Source: Thermomonas sp. HDW16
GTDB taxonomy: Bacteria > Pseudomonadota > Gammaproteobacteria > Xanthomonadales > Xanthomonadaceae
DNA length: 64,000 bases
Direction: 5' to 3'
Assembly: GCF_011302915.1 (NCBI RefSeq)
Contig: NZ_CP049872.1
Location: forward strand, 62,001 to 126,000
The stretch's first letter is position 1, and every line of letters begins with the position of its first letter. Shown piece after piece: positions 48,502 to 61,200 of this stretch. Below the pieces are notes generated by a model. That model did not search any database. It saw only the letters and a list, made by a program, of their open reading frames with translations, and was not told the DNA's origin. A program made the translations under genes and the position numbers.

Positions 48502-50694
48502 ATGCAGGCCACCCGTCCGGTACTGCACGTGGCCCTGCCCGTGCCGTTGCCACGTCCTTTCGACTACTTCCCGCCACCCGGCATCGATCCCGCATCGGTG
48601 GCGGTCGGCCAGCGCATCCTGGTGCCGTTCGGCGCGCGCGAGCTGTGCGGCATCGTCACCGGCCATGGCGTGGCCGAGGCCGGCATCGAACCCAAATCCG
48701 TACTCGCCCTGCCCGATCCTGCGCCGCTGCTGCAGGGCGAACTGTTCGCTTCGCTGCAGTGGCTGTCCGGCTACCTGCATGCGCCGCTGGGCGAGGTGTT
48801 GGCCACCGCACTGCCCGCCGCCTTGCGGCGCGGCGAGCCGCTGCCGGACACCACCCAATACGGATGGCGATTGAGCGAGGCCGGCCGCACCGCATTGCCA
48901 TCGATGCGCGCAGGCAAACCGAAAGCGCTGGCGACGCTGTTCGAATCAGTTCGCGACGAGGAATGGCTGGATGACGAAGTCCCCGGCTGGCGTTCGGCCT
49001 TGCGCGGCTTGCGCGAACGCGGGCTGGTTGAGCGCATCGAAATGGGGACGGAGGGAATTAAGCCGCACTTAATTCCCTCCGTCCCCGTTTCCCTCAACTC
49101 CGAACAGCAGACCGCCGCCGAGACCATCCGCGCGGCAGATGGCTTCGCCGCGTTCCTGCTGGACGGCGTCACCGGCAGCGGCAAGACCGAGGTGTATCTG
49201 GACGCGATCACCGACTGCCTCGCGCGCGGCAAGCAGGCGCTGGTGCTGGTACCGGAGATCGGCCTCACCCCGCAGGCACTGGCGCGGTTCCGCGCGCGCC
49301 TCGGCGTGCCGATTCATGCGTTGCATTCCGGCCTCAACGACAACGAGCGCGCGCGCAGCTGGATGGCGGCAGCGCGCGGGCAGGCGCGGGTGATCGTGGG
49401 CACGCGCTCGGCGGTATTCGTGCCGCTGCCCGATGCCGGGCTGATCGTGGTCGACGAGGAACACGACGGCAGCTACAAGCAGTTCGACGGCATCCGCTAC
49501 CAGGCGCGCGATTTCGCCATCGTCCGCGCGCGCGCGCTGGGCGTGCCGATCGTGCTGGGCAGTGCCACGCCCTCGCTGGAATCGCTGCACAACGCGCAGT
49601 CCGGCCGCTACAACCATCTGCGCTTGCGCCATCGCGCCGGCAATGCGAAGCCGCCCGCCGTGCGCGTGGTCGATGTGCGCAAGCAGCCGTTGCAGGCCGG
49701 CTTGTCGAATACGGCACTGGATGCGATTCGCGCCGCTTTGCAAGCCGGTGGACAAGTGCTGGTGTTCAAGAATCGCCGCGGCTATGCGCCGGTACTGCTC
49801 TGTCACGACTGCGGCTGGAGCGCGCATTGCACGCGCTGTGGCACTCCGGACAAACCCAGCGCAATGACCGTGCATGCAGGTGGCCACCGCCTGCAATGCC
49901 ATCACTGCGGGCATCGCCGCGCGGTGCCGCTGGCCTGCCCGGATTGCGCCAGCCTGGGCCTGCAGCCGCAGGGTGCGGGTACCGAACGCATCGAGGAAGT
50001 GCTGAAGGAGCGCTTTCCCGACACGCCGGTACTGCGCATCGACCGCGGCAGTTCGCAACGCCGCGACGCCATCGAACACCACTTCGCCGAACTCGGCAGC
50101 CAGCCCGGAGTTTTGGTTGGCACGCAGATGCTGGCCAAGGGTCACGATCTACCGAACCTGACGCTGGTCGTCGTGGTCGGCGTCGACGAAGGCCTGTTCT
50201 CCGCCGACTTCCGCAGCGGCGAAAAGCTCGCCCAGCTGCTGATCCAGGTCGCCGGCCGCGCCGGCCGCGCCGACAAGCCGGGCACGGTGTTGGTGCAGAC
50301 GCATCACCCCGAACATCCGCTGCTGCTTACGCTGATCGGTGGCGGTTACCACGCGTTTGCCGATGGCGAAATCGCGCTGCGCGAAGCCGCTGCGTTTCCG
50401 CCGTTCGCGCATCTCGCCCTGCTGCGTGCGGAAGCGAAGCATGCCGATCCGCCGATGCAGTTCCTGCAGCGCGCGAAGGAACTATTGGGCGATGCCGGCA
50501 TCGAAATCGCCGGCCCCTTGCCCGCGCCGATGCCGCGCCGCGCCGGCTATCTACGCGCGCAGCTGATCCTGGCCTCGAACGAACGCCGCCGCCTGCATGC
50601 CGCGCTGGATGTAGTGATGCCGCAACTGCAAGCACTGCCCGAGGCACGCAAACTGCGCTGGTCGCTGGATGTCGATCCGGCGGAACTCTACTGA
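48502..50694 (+). CDS. priA: Primosomal replication protein N' (PriA helicase)
   Basis: Replication-restart helicase, 730 residues. The order is the N-terminal DNA-binding domain ([16 protein letters not shown]), a winged-helix-like segment, Walker [10 protein letters not shown] (about 222-230), DEEH (about 315), zinc ligands CHDCG...CTRC, CHHCG and CPDC, helicase motifs ([26 protein letters not shown]) and the C-terminal domain. A palindromic repeat is inserted in frame at about codons 180-197, in the linker before the helicase core, encoding [24 protein letters not shown] residues. The frame stays open. Start at 48502. Confidence 0.95.
49039..49091 (+). repeat. REP-like palindromic element inside priA
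   Basis: A perfect 19-bp inverted repeat (GGGGACGGAGGGAATTAAG at 49044-49062, CTTAATTCCCTCCGTCCCC at 49068-49086) encloses a CCGCA loop. Flanking GAAAT and GTTTC extend it to 24 bp with one G-U pair. Such GGGGACGGAGGG...TTAA palindromes are known as dispersed repeats near IS200-like REP-associated transposases. Insertion is in frame, between DNA-binding and helicase domains. Confidence 0.8.
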
Positions 50695-56466: not shown

Positions 56467-57099
56467 GTGTCCTTCGCCCTGCAGCTGTTCGACCTGATCG
56501 GCATCTTCGTGTTCGCGCTCAGCGGCGGCGTGCTGGCGGTGCGCTATCGGCTGGATCTGTTCGGCGTGCTGGTGCTGGCCTGCGTCACTGCCGTGACCGG
56601 CGGCATCGTGCGCGACGTACTGATCGGCGCGATCCCGCCTGCTTCGCTGGCCGATTGGCGCTACCTGGCCACCGCGATCCTGGCCGGCCTGGTGACCTTC
56701 TGCTGGAGTGGCGTGATCGAGCGACTGCGCAACCCGGTGCTGATGTTCGATGCCGCCGGCCTGTCGCTGTATGCGGTGCTCGGCACCGGCAAGGCGTTGG
56801 CGTTCGGCCTGTCGCCGTTCGCTGCCACCCTGCTCGGGATCATCACCGGCATCGGCGGCGGTATCGCCCGCGACCTGCTGGTGGCGCGCACGCCGGTGGT
56901 GCTGCAGCAGACCGAGCTTTATGCGGTGGCGGCGATGGTCGGCGGTGGCATCGTGGCGATCGCGCATGCGCTCGGCTGGCCGCAGGTGCCGGCGATGGTG
57001 GTCGGCGCGCTGCTCTGCTTCGTCTTGCGCTTCGGGGCGATCCGCCGCGGCTGGCGGTTGCCGGTGGCACGCGCACCGGACGATCCCGACAAACCCTGA
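56467..57099 (+). CDS. Trimeric intracellular cation (TRIC) channel family protein
   Basis: A 210-residue inner-membrane protein with seven hydrophobic helices in two inverted halves. Both halves have the TRIC/UPF0126 motif (TGGIVRDVLIG and GGGIARDLLVA). Bacterial members are homotrimeric potassium-conducting channels, also known as YadS/YicG-like. The start is the GTG at 56467 (read MSFALQLFDLIGIF). A strong terminator follows 16 bases after the stop. Confidence 0.9.
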   Translation: MSFALQLFDLIGIFVFALSGGVLAVRYRLDLFGVLVLACVTAVTGGIVRDVLIGAIPPASLADWRYLATAILAGLVTFCWSGVIERLRNPVLMFDAAGLSLYAVLGTGKALAFGLSPFAATLLGIITGIGGGIARDLLVARTPVVLQQTELYAVAAMVGGGIVAIAHALGWPQVPAMVVGALLCFVLRFGAIRRGWRLPVARAPDDPDKP

Positions 57100-57114
57100 T
57101 CTCCGAAACGCGAA

Positions 57115-57141
57115 CGGCCCGGATCGCTCCGGGCCGTTTTT
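57115..57141 (+). terminator. Intrinsic terminator after the TRIC gene
   Basis: An 8-bp stem, CGGCCCGG (57115-57122) and CCGGGCCG (57129-57136), with a six-base loop is followed by five T residues (57137-57141). It separates the TRIC gene from convergent rpoH. Confidence 0.9.
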
Positions 57142-57163
57142 GATTGCTTCGATTCGCCGCGGC

Positions 57164-58030
57164 TTACGCCGCGAACAACGCCTTCATCTTCTTCAGCGCA
57201 TTCGCCTCGACCTGGCGAATGCGTTCGGCGGAGACGCCGTATTCGTCGGCCAGTTCCTGCAGGGTCACCTTGCTGTCGGCATCCAGCCAGCGGCGCTTGA
57301 TGATGTCGCGCGAACGCTCATCGAGCTTGGCCATGCCTTCGCGCAGCAGCTCCAGCTGGTTGTCTTCGCTGTCGGCGGATTCGTAGGCTTCGGCCGGGTC
57401 CACGTCATTGTTTGCGACGAGGTAGTTGGCCGGTGCCGGCGGGGCGTGGTCGTCGTCGGCATCATCCGGCGCATCGAAACCGATGTCGCGACCGGACAGG
57501 CGCGATTCCATTTCCAGCACTTCGCGTTCGCTGACGTTGAGGTCCTTCGCCACCGCACTGACTTCGGCCGCACTCAACCAACCCAGGCGCTTCTTGCTCT
57601 TGCGCAGGTTGAAAAACAGCTTGCGCTGCGCCTTGGTGGTGGCGACTTTCACGATGCGCCAGTTCTTGATGATGTATTCGTGCATCTCCGCACGAATCCA
57701 GTGCACCGCAAAGCTGACCAGGCGCACGCCGACCGTGGGGTCGAAGCGCTTCACCGCCTTCATCAGGCCGATATTGCCTTCCTGCACCAGGTCGCCCAGC
57801 TGCAGGCCGTAGCCGCTGTAACCGCGGGCGACGTGGATGACGAAACGCAGGTGCGACAGGATCAGTTCCTGCGCCGCGGCGATGTCGTTGTCTTCGCGCA
57901 GGCGACGCGCGAGGCGCTGCTCGTCCTCGACGGACAGCACCGGGATCTGGTGCACGGCACCGATGTACGCCTCCATCGAACCGAGCGTGCTCGGGATCGG
58001 CAGGTTGTTGGCGACCAATGCTTGGGACAT
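57164..58030 (-). CDS. rpoH: RNA polymerase sigma-32 factor
   Basis: Heat-shock sigma factor, 288 residues. Region 2 ([43 protein letters not shown]), the RpoH box ([17 protein letters not shown]) and region 4 ([28 protein letters not shown]) are all present. The ATG at 58030 is chosen because GAGGT stands six bases before it; two upstream in-frame ATGs (58045, 58069) lack such a site. Upstream lie a CIRCE-like repeat and a sigma-E-like promoter. Confidence 0.95.
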
Positions 58031-58055
58031 CGAGACCTCTTTCATGTGGGTGATT

Positions 58056-58082
58056 TTAGCAGTCGCCATATCTGACTGCTAA
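58056..58082. promoter_or_regulatory. CIRCE-like HrcA operator upstream of rpoH
   Basis: A perfect 9-9-9 inverted repeat, TTAGCAGTC-N9-GACTGCTAA. It differs from the CIRCE consensus (TTAGCACTC-N9-GAGTGCTAA) only by one symmetrical exchange in each arm. It lies 26 bases before the rpoH start, in the 5' leader or promoter. Confidence 0.75.
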
Positions 58083-58097
58083 CCCTGCCAAAAGTTC
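58071..58097 (-). promoter_or_regulatory. Possible sigma-E type promoter of rpoH
   Basis: On the minus strand GAACTT (58092-58097), 15 bases, GTCAGA (58071-58076) resembles the RpoE consensus GAACTT-N15/16-GTCnnA. E. coli rpoH also has a sigma-E promoter, so the analogy is reasonable but untested. The -10 half overlaps the CIRCE-like repeat. Confidence 0.4.
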
Positions 58098-58184
58098 ATT
58101 AGTGTTCCGTTTATGGAACGATGGGCCGCACCAGCCCCCTCGCGCCACAGGAACGTCATGGGGACTATCAGGCGGGGGACAAGG

Positions 58185-58211
58185 CCCGGGCCGGCATGAC
58201 GCCGACCCGGG
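58185..58211 (-). terminator. Hairpin downstream of the adhesin gene
   Basis: An 11-bp stem (GCCGACCCGGG / CCCGGGCCGGC, one G-U pair) with a five-base loop stands 7 bases after the adhesin stop. There is no clear T tract on the minus strand. A weak terminator candidate. Confidence 0.5.
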
Positions 58212-58217
58212 AATCTG

Positions 58218-61200
58218 TCAGGGCTGGGGACGGGCCGAACCGGCCGTCAACATCCCCGTCTGATCACCCGGCTGCAGCATTGTCTGGCTCGGGCTCAGGC
58301 GCGGCAGCTGTCCGTAGGACAGGCGGATGCCGAAGGTATTGGCGAACAGGTCGCGGGCCTGCTCACGGCGGTATTCGAAAGCCAGGTTCCAGCCGTTGCC
58401 GAAGGCCATGTCGATGCCCGCACCGAAGCTCGCCACATCGTCGTTGTAGCTGCGCAGGCCCAGCAGATAGTCGCCGCTGCGCGGCAGCACCACGTAGTTG
58501 ATGCCCGCATCGGCGTTGTTCTGCAGCGACTGCCGCCATTCCAGCATCCAGTAAGGCCGGATCATCGCCGTGTCGGTGCTGAAGGCGTAACGCCCCTCCA
58601 CGCCTAGCGCCGCCGTGCTGCTGTCCACGTCCTGTTTGGCGTACTGCAAGTCGTAGATGCCCAACCCGGCCTCGCGGTAGGCGTCCAGCGTGGTGCGGCT
58701 GCTGTCCAGGCGGCCATAGCCGGTGTAGGCACCGTTCCCGGCGCGGTGCTCGTAACCCAGCGTCAGCGATCCGAACAGCTGGTCGCCATCGCGCTTGGCG
58801 GTCGCCGTGGCATTGGCCACCGCACTCCAGCGGACGATGTCGAAGTCCAGCCGCCCCCAGCCCAGGATGCCGTCCACGAACCACGCGTCCGCGCGCCACA
58901 GCCCGTACAGGGCCAGCGAGCGCTGGCGTGCATCCAGCGAGGAACGGCCATCGTCGAGGTCGCTGTCGTTCCAGCCGAAGCCGCCGGCCGCACCCAGCAC
59001 CGCGTTGTCGCCGATCAGGCGATCCACGCCGAAGGTCACGCCGTCACTGTGGAAGTCGAAGCCCTCGCGGGTGCTGCGTGCATCGCGCTCGCCCACCACC
59101 ACCGACCCGGCGCTCCAGAAGCCCCAGCCCTGCGGCATCGTCGGGGTCATCCCGGCCTGCCCGGCATTGAGCGTCAGGCCCAGTTGGCCCAGGCTGCCGC
59201 CCACCCGCAGCGCCACCGTGTTGGACGAGGCATTGCCGCCGCTGCGCAGCTGCTGCAGGCGGCCACGGATGTTGTCCTGCTGCACCTGTGCGAAGCGCAC
59301 GCTGGCATCCACCTGCGCCTGCAGGCCGCCGGCCACCGAGGGATCCTTCGTCGGGTCCGGGCGGTCGCTCACGGTCAGGGTGATGCTGATCGAGGCGGCT
59401 TGGTAATTGGTGGTGGCCGCCTGCGTCGCGGTGAGCGTGGTGCTGCCTGCACCCACCAGCGTCACGGTGGTACCGCTGACCGTGGCCACCTGCGCGTTGC
59501 TGCTGGCGAAGGTGAAAGTGCCCGGGCTGGTGCTGGCCGGGGCGGGCAGGTCGAACGCAGCCTCACCGTAGACCTTGCTGATGTCCGTGGTCCATCCCAG
59601 CACGGGTGCCGCCTTGCCGATCATCACCGTAAGCGTCGCTTGCGGTGCGGCGCTGTAACTGGTGTTGCCGGCCTGGTCGGCGGTGATGGTGCAGGTACCG
59701 GCCGACAGCATCGTGACCGTGCTGCCGGCGACCGAGCACACGCCCGATGTCGTCGTAGCAAACACTACCGGATTGCCCGAGGCACCGCCCGTGGCCGCGA
59801 CACTGAACGTACCACCCGGCGCATAGGTCGGCGTGGCGGGAGTGGCCGCAAAGCCGGCGATCGCCTGCGTGGCCTGGCTGATGGTGATGGTCTGCGTCAC
59901 CTGCGTGGCGGCGGTGTAGTTCGCATCGCCGGCCTGGTCGGCGGCGATGGTGCAAGTGCCGGCGGACAGCATCGTCACCGTGCTGCCGCTGATCGAACAG
60001 ACGGTCCCGGTCAGCGAGGAATAACTGACCGCGAGACCGCTGCTGGCGGTCGCCAGCGGGTTGAGGGCAAACGTCCCGTTCGGTGCGTAGGTCTGGTTCG
60101 TCTGCGCACCGAAGGTGATGGTCTGCGTCGCTTGGCCGATCACCGCATTCAGCATCTCCTGCGTGGCGGCGGTGTAGTTCGCATCGCCGGCCTGGTCCGC
60201 CGTCAACGAACAAGTGCCGGCCGACAGCATCGTGACTGTGCTGCCACTGACCGTACAGATGCTCGGTGAGGTGGAAGCAAACGTCACCGGGTTGCCCGAA
60301 GCACCGCCCGTGGCGCTGACGCTGAACGTGCCATTCGGTGCATAGGTTGGTGCGGCAGGATTGGCCGCAAAGCCGGTGATCGTCTGCGTGGCCTGACTGA
60401 TGGCGATGGTCTGGCTCACCGGGGTTGCGGCGGTGTAGTTCGCATCGCCAGCTTGGTCGGCGGCAATGGTGCAGGTGCCGGCGGACAGCATCGTCACCGT
60501 GGTGTTGCTAATCGTGCACACGCCGGTCGTTTGCGAGGTGTAGCTGATCGCCAAGCCGCTGCTGGCGGTGGCGACCGGGTTCAAGGCGAAGGTGCCGTTC
60601 GGCGCGAAGGCCTGGTTCGCTTGCACGTCGAAGGTGATGGTCTGCGACTGCTGCCCCACCAGCACGCCCGTCGTCCCCGCGACATTGTTCAGGGTCAGGT
60701 CGGCATCGTTACCCACGGCATCCTGCACGCTGCCGCCGTTGGCCGAAAGCGCGCCCAGGGCGATGCCGTCGTTGTCGCTATCGCCCGCGACCACGGTGTA
60801 GCGGAACACCAGCGCGTTGCTGCCGGAGCCGGACAGGTAAGCCGCCTGCACGGTGGTGGTGCCGATCACCACCGCCAGCTGCGGGGTACCGGTGACCGTG
60901 ACCGCTTCATTGAAGGTCACCGTGAAGTCCAGCGTCTCACCGCTCAGATAGCGCCCAGCGGCAGGCACGGCCACGGACGTCACCGCCGGCGGCGGTATGT
61001 AGGTGTACTGGCTTGCTGCACTGGTGCCGCCCGGCGTGGTCACGATGACATCCACGGTGCCGCTGCCTGCTGGTGCGGTGGCGGTGATCTGGGTATCAGT
61101 GTCGACCGTAAAAGAGCTGGCTACGGTTGTGCCGAAGTTCACCGCCGTGGCGCCGGTGAGACGGGTGCCGGTAATAGTGACCGTTGTCCCGCCTGCGGCC

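Follow-up and report, generated by a model that had tools for sequence, protein, structure and literature searches.

The inverted repeat that lies in front of rpoH, the gene for the heat-shock sigma factor sigma-32, in this 64-kb window (the whole stretch of DNA that was analysed) raises the question of whether the repressor HrcA acts directly on the gene at the head of the heat-shock response. In the classic HrcA/CIRCE regulon, operators of the form TTAGCACTC-N9-GAGTGCTAA control groESL and hrcA-grpE-dnaKJ, and natural CIRCE sites differ from this consensus by a few letters. The repeat, TTAGCAGTC-GCCATATCT-GACTGCTAA, is perfect, with two 9-bp inverted arms separated by a 9-bp gap. Its arms match CIRCE in 16 of 18 letters, and both deviations are symmetric, a C-to-G change at arm position 7 and the matching change at its partner. 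The sequence-only reading of exact CIRCE geometry with one compensated change in each arm is therefore borne out. The repeat ends 25 bp upstream of the rpoH start codon used here, with its far edge 52 bp upstream. Three perfect 9-N9-9 inverted repeats occur in the window, of which this one alone is near CIRCE (2 mismatches), and it is also the only place in the window with four or fewer mismatches to the canonical sequence, the next best having five.

The same genome encodes the repressor. The hrcA gene (Table 1), whose absence would have counted against the sequence-only reading, is present, and its neighbourhood reads recN (on the opposite strand), hrcA, grpE and dnaK, the last recognised by eye. 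The complete 2.8-Mb genome, of which the window is bases 62001-126000, was scanned with a relaxed operator pattern, TTAGCASTC-N9-GASTGCTAA, which accepts C or G at position 7, and up to three mismatches were allowed. Two matches were obtained, one at rpoH with no mismatches and one upstream of groES with three; none was found at hrcA-grpE-dnaK. The groES site, TTGGCACTT-N9-GACTGCTAG, lies 49 bp upstream of groES and 0.46 kb upstream of the groEL match. It is the weaker of the two and carries the altered half GACTGCTA that is also found at rpoH. The altered base expected at groES is thus present in the second arm, whereas position 7 of the first arm has the canonical C. A control scan of the same genome with the reversed pattern also gave two matches at three mismatches or fewer, which places three-mismatch matches alone at chance level; the groES match therefore draws its meaning from its location and from the relatives.

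Table 1. Features of the rpoH upstream region and the hrcA gene of the host genome.
Feature	Coordinates	Strand	Remarks
rpoH, heat-shock sigma factor sigma-32	57164..58030	-	TIGR02392 403.7 bits, cut-off 323.1
rpoH start codon as used here	58028-58030	-	Shine-Dalgarno-like AGAGG at 58036-58040
In-frame ATG upstream of the rpoH start used here	58043-58045	-	
HrcA operator (CIRCE variant), predicted	58056..58082	-	rpoH-strand reading TTAGCAGTC-AGATATGGC-GACTGCTAA
-35 element, sigma-E type, GAACTT	58092..58097	-	16 bp before TC of the -10
-10 element, sigma-E type, TCAGA	58071..58075	-	end of operator first arm and three loop bases
Extended -10, sigma-70 type, TGCTAAAAT	58053..58061	-	operator second arm and three bases
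hrcA	G000:C1:1699264-1699920		TIGR00331 308 bits

The window holds a further palindrome of a different kind. An inverted repeat with 19-bp arms, GGGGACGGAGGGAATTAAG-ccgca-CTTAATTCCCTCCGTCCCC, is found at 49044-49086 inside priA (48502-50694; NCBIfam NF004067, 974 bits), which is open throughout. The arm has one further copy in the genome at up to three mismatches, with 3 mismatches, and the repeat is possibly a mobile palindrome that sits in a coding gene.

Conservation of the rpoH site was surveyed in a set of 149 family genomes taken from a larger group. RpoH was found at E ≤1e-90 in 146 of these, and 145 upstream regions were read, the truncated gene of one genome (G142) being dropped. The repeat is indeed present in relatives: an operator with spacing 9 and at most three mismatches to the relaxed pattern precedes rpoH in 130 of the 145 genomes. 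The letters at arm position 7 and its partner are G/C in 75 of these sites, the canonical C/G in 23, C/C in 22, G/T in 9 and G/G in one. One might suppose that the site is a CIRCE in decay, which HrcA has ceased to bind on account of the altered letter, given that the host site is two symmetric letters off consensus and its groES site three mismatches off the relaxed pattern. However, the changed form, G/C, is the commonest in the family, is symmetric and has been kept across many genera, and half-decayed forms are those of the HrcA-less genomes described below. We consider decay of this kind very improbable.

Departures from the pattern also occur where the repressor is present. The rpoH site falls outside two mismatches in 18 of 137 HrcA-bearing genomes; seven of these have three mismatches and 11 have more, and among the 11 at least two (G072 and G103) carry a similar repeat with a shorter spacer. 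In genus g40 all five sampled genomes (G039, G075, G102, G127 and G146) possess HrcA and have lost the CIRCE-like site before rpoH. These HrcA-bearing genomes show that rpoH can drop out of the regulon without loss of HrcA. The relaxed pattern is matched once in each g40 genome. A separate variant, whose first arm has lost its outer TTA (CCAGCAGTC or CCGGCAGTC) and whose second arm is perfect, was seen in G006, G058, G085, G111, G134, G001, G017 and others, and also in Xanthomonas pisi (L002).

Natural losses of hrcA allow the site to be compared in the presence and absence of its predicted reader. HrcA was found in 141 of the 149 genomes. Of the eight without it, three (G089, G135 and G143) gave no grpE match either, so that the hrcA-grpE region is probably missing from their assemblies; these genomes, whose rpoH sites have no mismatches, were set aside from the comparison. 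The remaining five are G003, G055 and G133 (genus g4), G029 (g30) and G130 (g47). In G003, G055, G133 and G029, recN (identified by family scan) lies directly against grpE and hrcA is gone from between them (L299, L296, L295 and L297); in G130 an open reading frame with no NCBIfam match is found upstream of grpE. Counted by genus, hrcA thus appears to have been lost repeatedly in the family, in at least three separate events.

The rpoH site is retained within two mismatches in 119 of 137 HrcA-bearing genomes, compared with none of the five that lack HrcA (Fisher 7.5e-5, uncorrected for kinship), and within three mismatches in 126 of 137 versus one of five (Fisher 3.9e-4, likewise uncorrected). 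This comparison of genomes, which spans three genera, indicates indirectly that the site is lost where HrcA is lost. The broken sites have 3 mismatches in G133, 4 in G130 and 5 in each of G003 and G055, and that of G029, with its arms 10 bp apart, has three and was scored 4.5. The sampled HrcA-bearing congeners (G083, G109; G046, G079, G106; G071, G098, G124, G145) keep the rpoH site at 0-1 mismatches. The groES site is found at three mismatches or fewer in all 27 HrcA-bearing genomes read, and has 3, 6, 6, 6 and 7 mismatches in the five HrcA-less ones; that with 3 is in G130, where the site is no worse than in the host despite the loss of hrcA.

The repeat coincides with two promoter-like elements. 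Sigma-E promoters have a GGAACTT-type -35 and a TCnnA-type -10 at a spacing of about 16; transcription from them starts about 6-7 bp after the -10 and is lost without RpoE. The sequence GAACTT-N16-TCAGA before rpoH fits this description, with its -10 within the operator, and RpoE is encoded in the genome (TIGR02939, 323.4 bits, cut-off 236.15). A GAACTT-type -35 (at least five of six letters, spaced 15-17 from the TC of the first arm) accompanies 103 of the 130 rpoH sites in the family and none of 31 groES sites, against a background rate of 0.009. The loop A that completes TCnnA is present in 101 of the 103 rpoH sites with this -35, in 9 of the 27 without it and in none of the 31 groES sites. 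The two features thus go together across the 130 genomes and, since the loop A is not demanded by the CIRCE consensus, it provides an independent argument that a sigma-E promoter runs through the operator. On the other side of the loop, the second arm and the following three bases read TGCTAAnAT, the final T being present in all 130 rpoH sites and in 27 of 31 groES sites. Each of the five HrcA-less genomes still has this element in a slightly changed form, as TGGTAAAAT, TGCTAGAAT, TGCTAAGAT or TGCTAAAAT, which is as expected of an extended -10.

Whether the sigma-E -10 requires G at position 7 was also considered. At spacings of 13-19 a -35 accompanies 75 of 85 sites with G in the first arm and 29 of 45 with C; the trend is present, but a good -35 is often found with C7 sites too, and a requirement was rejected.

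In 67 of 128 family genomes counted (two with odd-length stretches were skipped) the first in-frame ATG of rpoH after the operator is found 36-38 bases from the operator start, close to the transcription start expected of the extended -10, and the rpoH mRNA could be leaderless; in the window the ATG concerned is that at 58043-58045. An in-frame ATG overlaps the -10 (offset 28) in 40 of the 128.

Conservation of the repeat could in principle reflect these promoter elements only, a sigma-E -10 and an extended -10 in mirror positions, or a different regulator that reads the palindrome. Parts of both arms do survive in HrcA-less genomes as pieces of the promoters, for example TGGTAAAAT in G003 and G055, and GTC in G029 and G133. 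However, two stretches belong to neither promoter element. Of these, the TTAGCA of the first arm is changed in all five HrcA-less genomes and kept at 88-100% in the 130 sites, and the GA of the second arm, kept at 89-99%, is changed in four of the five. The altered half-site is moreover common to rpoH and groES. Dyella and all 22 Betaproteobacteria loci read also have CIRCE upstream of rpoH, in its canonical form or one close to it. An explanation by promoter elements or another regulator is improbable in the light of these observations.

An inverted repeat may also act in RNA. With transcription beginning further upstream, the perfect 9-bp repeat, which lies 25 bp from the start codon used here, could fold into a stem, and a hairpin or thermometer of this kind in the rpoH leader could mask the ribosome-binding site. 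However, C stands opposite C at stem position 7 in 22 of the 130 family sites, which are otherwise conserved, and it is mainly on this ground that an RNA element was rejected. Both proposed promoters would, besides, start transcription inside or after the repeat; a related element precedes groES; the repeat decays where hrcA is lost; and no Rfam family matched positions 57000-58500 at up to E = 1. We therefore hold a role in RNA to be highly unlikely.

The reading best supported by these comparisons is that the repeat is an HrcA operator placed over the start region of the rpoH promoters, so that rpoH and groESL would be repressed jointly. Judged from sequence comparison, we put the probability of this at roughly 85%. 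The sequence-only reading held that CIRCE at this gene would make HrcA a direct brake on the sigma-32 regulon. As an operator, the site is supported by its conservation in the family, the presence of hrcA, the altered half-site shared with groES and the decay of the site in three genera with hrcA-less members; the implication that its placement is exceptional did not stand, as described below. Counting against an HrcA operator are the host groES site, at three mismatches from even the relaxed pattern, the groES site of G130, no worse although hrcA is gone, the 18 HrcA-bearing genomes whose rpoH site falls outside two mismatches, and the small number of genera, three, that underlie the loss comparison.

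The letter at position 7 varies together with the repressor itself. Few operator systems of bacteria are as conserved as HrcA-CIRCE. HrcA N-termini were read in 111 of the 141 HrcA-bearing genomes, those with C at position 7 being taken first. Where the recognition helix is of the Met type (RNxM), position 7 is C in 33 of 33 genomes; where it is of the Leu type (RNxL), it is G in 57 of 68. Among the genomes read, the symmetric C-to-G change was seen only with an HrcA whose recognition helix is altered from Met to Leu. Exceptions to the rule are the 11 Leu-type genomes that keep C at position 7, and 11 of the 33 Met-type genomes have C in the second arm; G001 and G047 have G at position 7 together with Arg. 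At groES, position 7 or its partner is altered in 14 of 21 Leu-type genomes read (8 C/C, 5 G/C and 1 G/G), seven being canonical C/G, and the single Met-type genome read there has the canonical letters. Among 18 second sites listed for Met-type genomes, read by eye, 17 have canonical second-arm letters and one (G128) is degenerate.

On a tree of HrcA N-termini, built from a short alignment with about half of its forks open and two long branches meeting, the M/L change occurs once, changes of the first-arm base 7 times, of the second-arm base 7 times and of Gln 5 times. The counts of M/L against C/G were rejected as proof of co-evolution, the M/L change being a single event with no independent replication; co-evolution of HrcA and operator is suggested by it and not proven. 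Two HrcA-operator types nevertheless do exist within the family. A search of solved-structure sequences with the first 115 residues of the host HrcA returned only Thermotoga HrcA (1stz) at up to E = 0.01, in which Gln occurs together with Met. Tentatively, and with more doubt than confidence, we suggest that HrcA-CIRCE specificity has changed within the family (Lysobacteraceae, going by the relatives that carry names): the change from RNxM to RNxL, mostly GSRTL to GSQTL, would go with the symmetric C-to-G7 at rpoH and with altered groES arms in most such genomes read. It may have been favoured because G7 improves the first arm as a sigma-E -10 (GTCnnA), one stretch then serving as both promoter and repressor site.

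CIRCE before rpoH is widespread beyond the family. An outside sample of the 80 best-ranked rpoH loci, which is unbalanced and was scored on rpoH upstream DNA irrespective of hrcA, gave 78 readable loci, two having too little upstream DNA. The site is present within two mismatches at 41 of the 78. With four named Lysobacterales loci and one unplaced close relative removed, it is found at 38 of 73 loci not placed in the host order, including all 22 from Betaproteobacteria; no operator within two mismatches was seen before rpoH at the 12 Enterobacterales and 6 Vibrionales loci. The G/C form among the 41 sites is confined to two Lysobacterales loci (L004 and L005), and a Dyella genome (L006) has canonical CIRCE at the same place. 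A CIRCE was also predicted before rpoH of Geobacter sulfurreducens in 2004, with the operator at -51 (Rodionov et al. 2004, PMC545781, Table 8). That position resembles the far edge of the present site, 52 bp before the start codon, whereas the Geobacter site has canonical letters, and the part of that report available to us states no sigma-E overlap (PMC545781). Together with the 38 of 73 loci, the Geobacter prediction removes the impression that placement at rpoH is exceptional.

For the host's family itself, no description of CIRCE at rpoH was found in the literature searched; an earlier one is possible, most likely in Permina and Gelfand 2003, which deals with Beta- and Gammaproteobacteria. 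The portions available of PMC3224663, PMC11764788, PMC6085468, PMC3135505, PMC1978210, PMC10490939 and PMC10696704 contain no mention of CIRCE at rpoH. What is new, as far as we have checked, is the symmetric change of letters, its association with HrcA type, the overlap with sigma-E and the test by natural loss.

Compared with known systems, the site shares with classic HrcA/CIRCE the 9-9-9 geometry, 16 of 18 arm letters, an HrcA in the genome, a groES site and overlap with a promoter, but differs in the C-to-G at arm position 7 and in having its sites, at up to three mismatches, at rpoH and groES with none at hrcA-grpE-dnaK. The P3 promoter of Escherichia coli rpoH is a sigma-E promoter, and a promoter of the same GAACTT-N16-TCnGA type precedes rpoH here; in contrast, the HrcA model has no match in the E. 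coli control genome, and the 12 Enterobacterales loci lack an operator within two mismatches.

An HrcA dimer bound to the two 9-bp arms would cover the sigma-E-type -10 (first arm and loop) as well as the extended sigma-70-type -10 (second arm), and from this overlap HrcA would be expected to block rpoH initiation directly, keeping its transcription low. In other bacteria HrcA loses activity when misfolded protein occupies GroEL. Heat or unfolded protein would then draw GroEL away from HrcA and free both rpoH and groESL, envelope stress would add sigma-E, and the resulting increase in sigma-32 and GroEL would re-arm HrcA. In Xylella under nitrogen starvation hrcA is up four-fold at 2 h and rpoH follows with a two-fold rise at 8 and 12 h, with chaperone genes down, a time course that, as far as the available part of that report goes, is not plainly a fit to simple repression of rpoH (PMC3224663).

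The natural losses of hrcA in three genera offer a ready test bed for this arrangement, and the re-lettered operator a way to find the HrcA residues that read CIRCE. In this family the sigma-32 gene appears to be under HrcA and a sigma-E promoter at one spot, so that the heat-shock cascade would combine signals of cytoplasmic and envelope stress at its top, in addition to control through the stability or translation of sigma-32.
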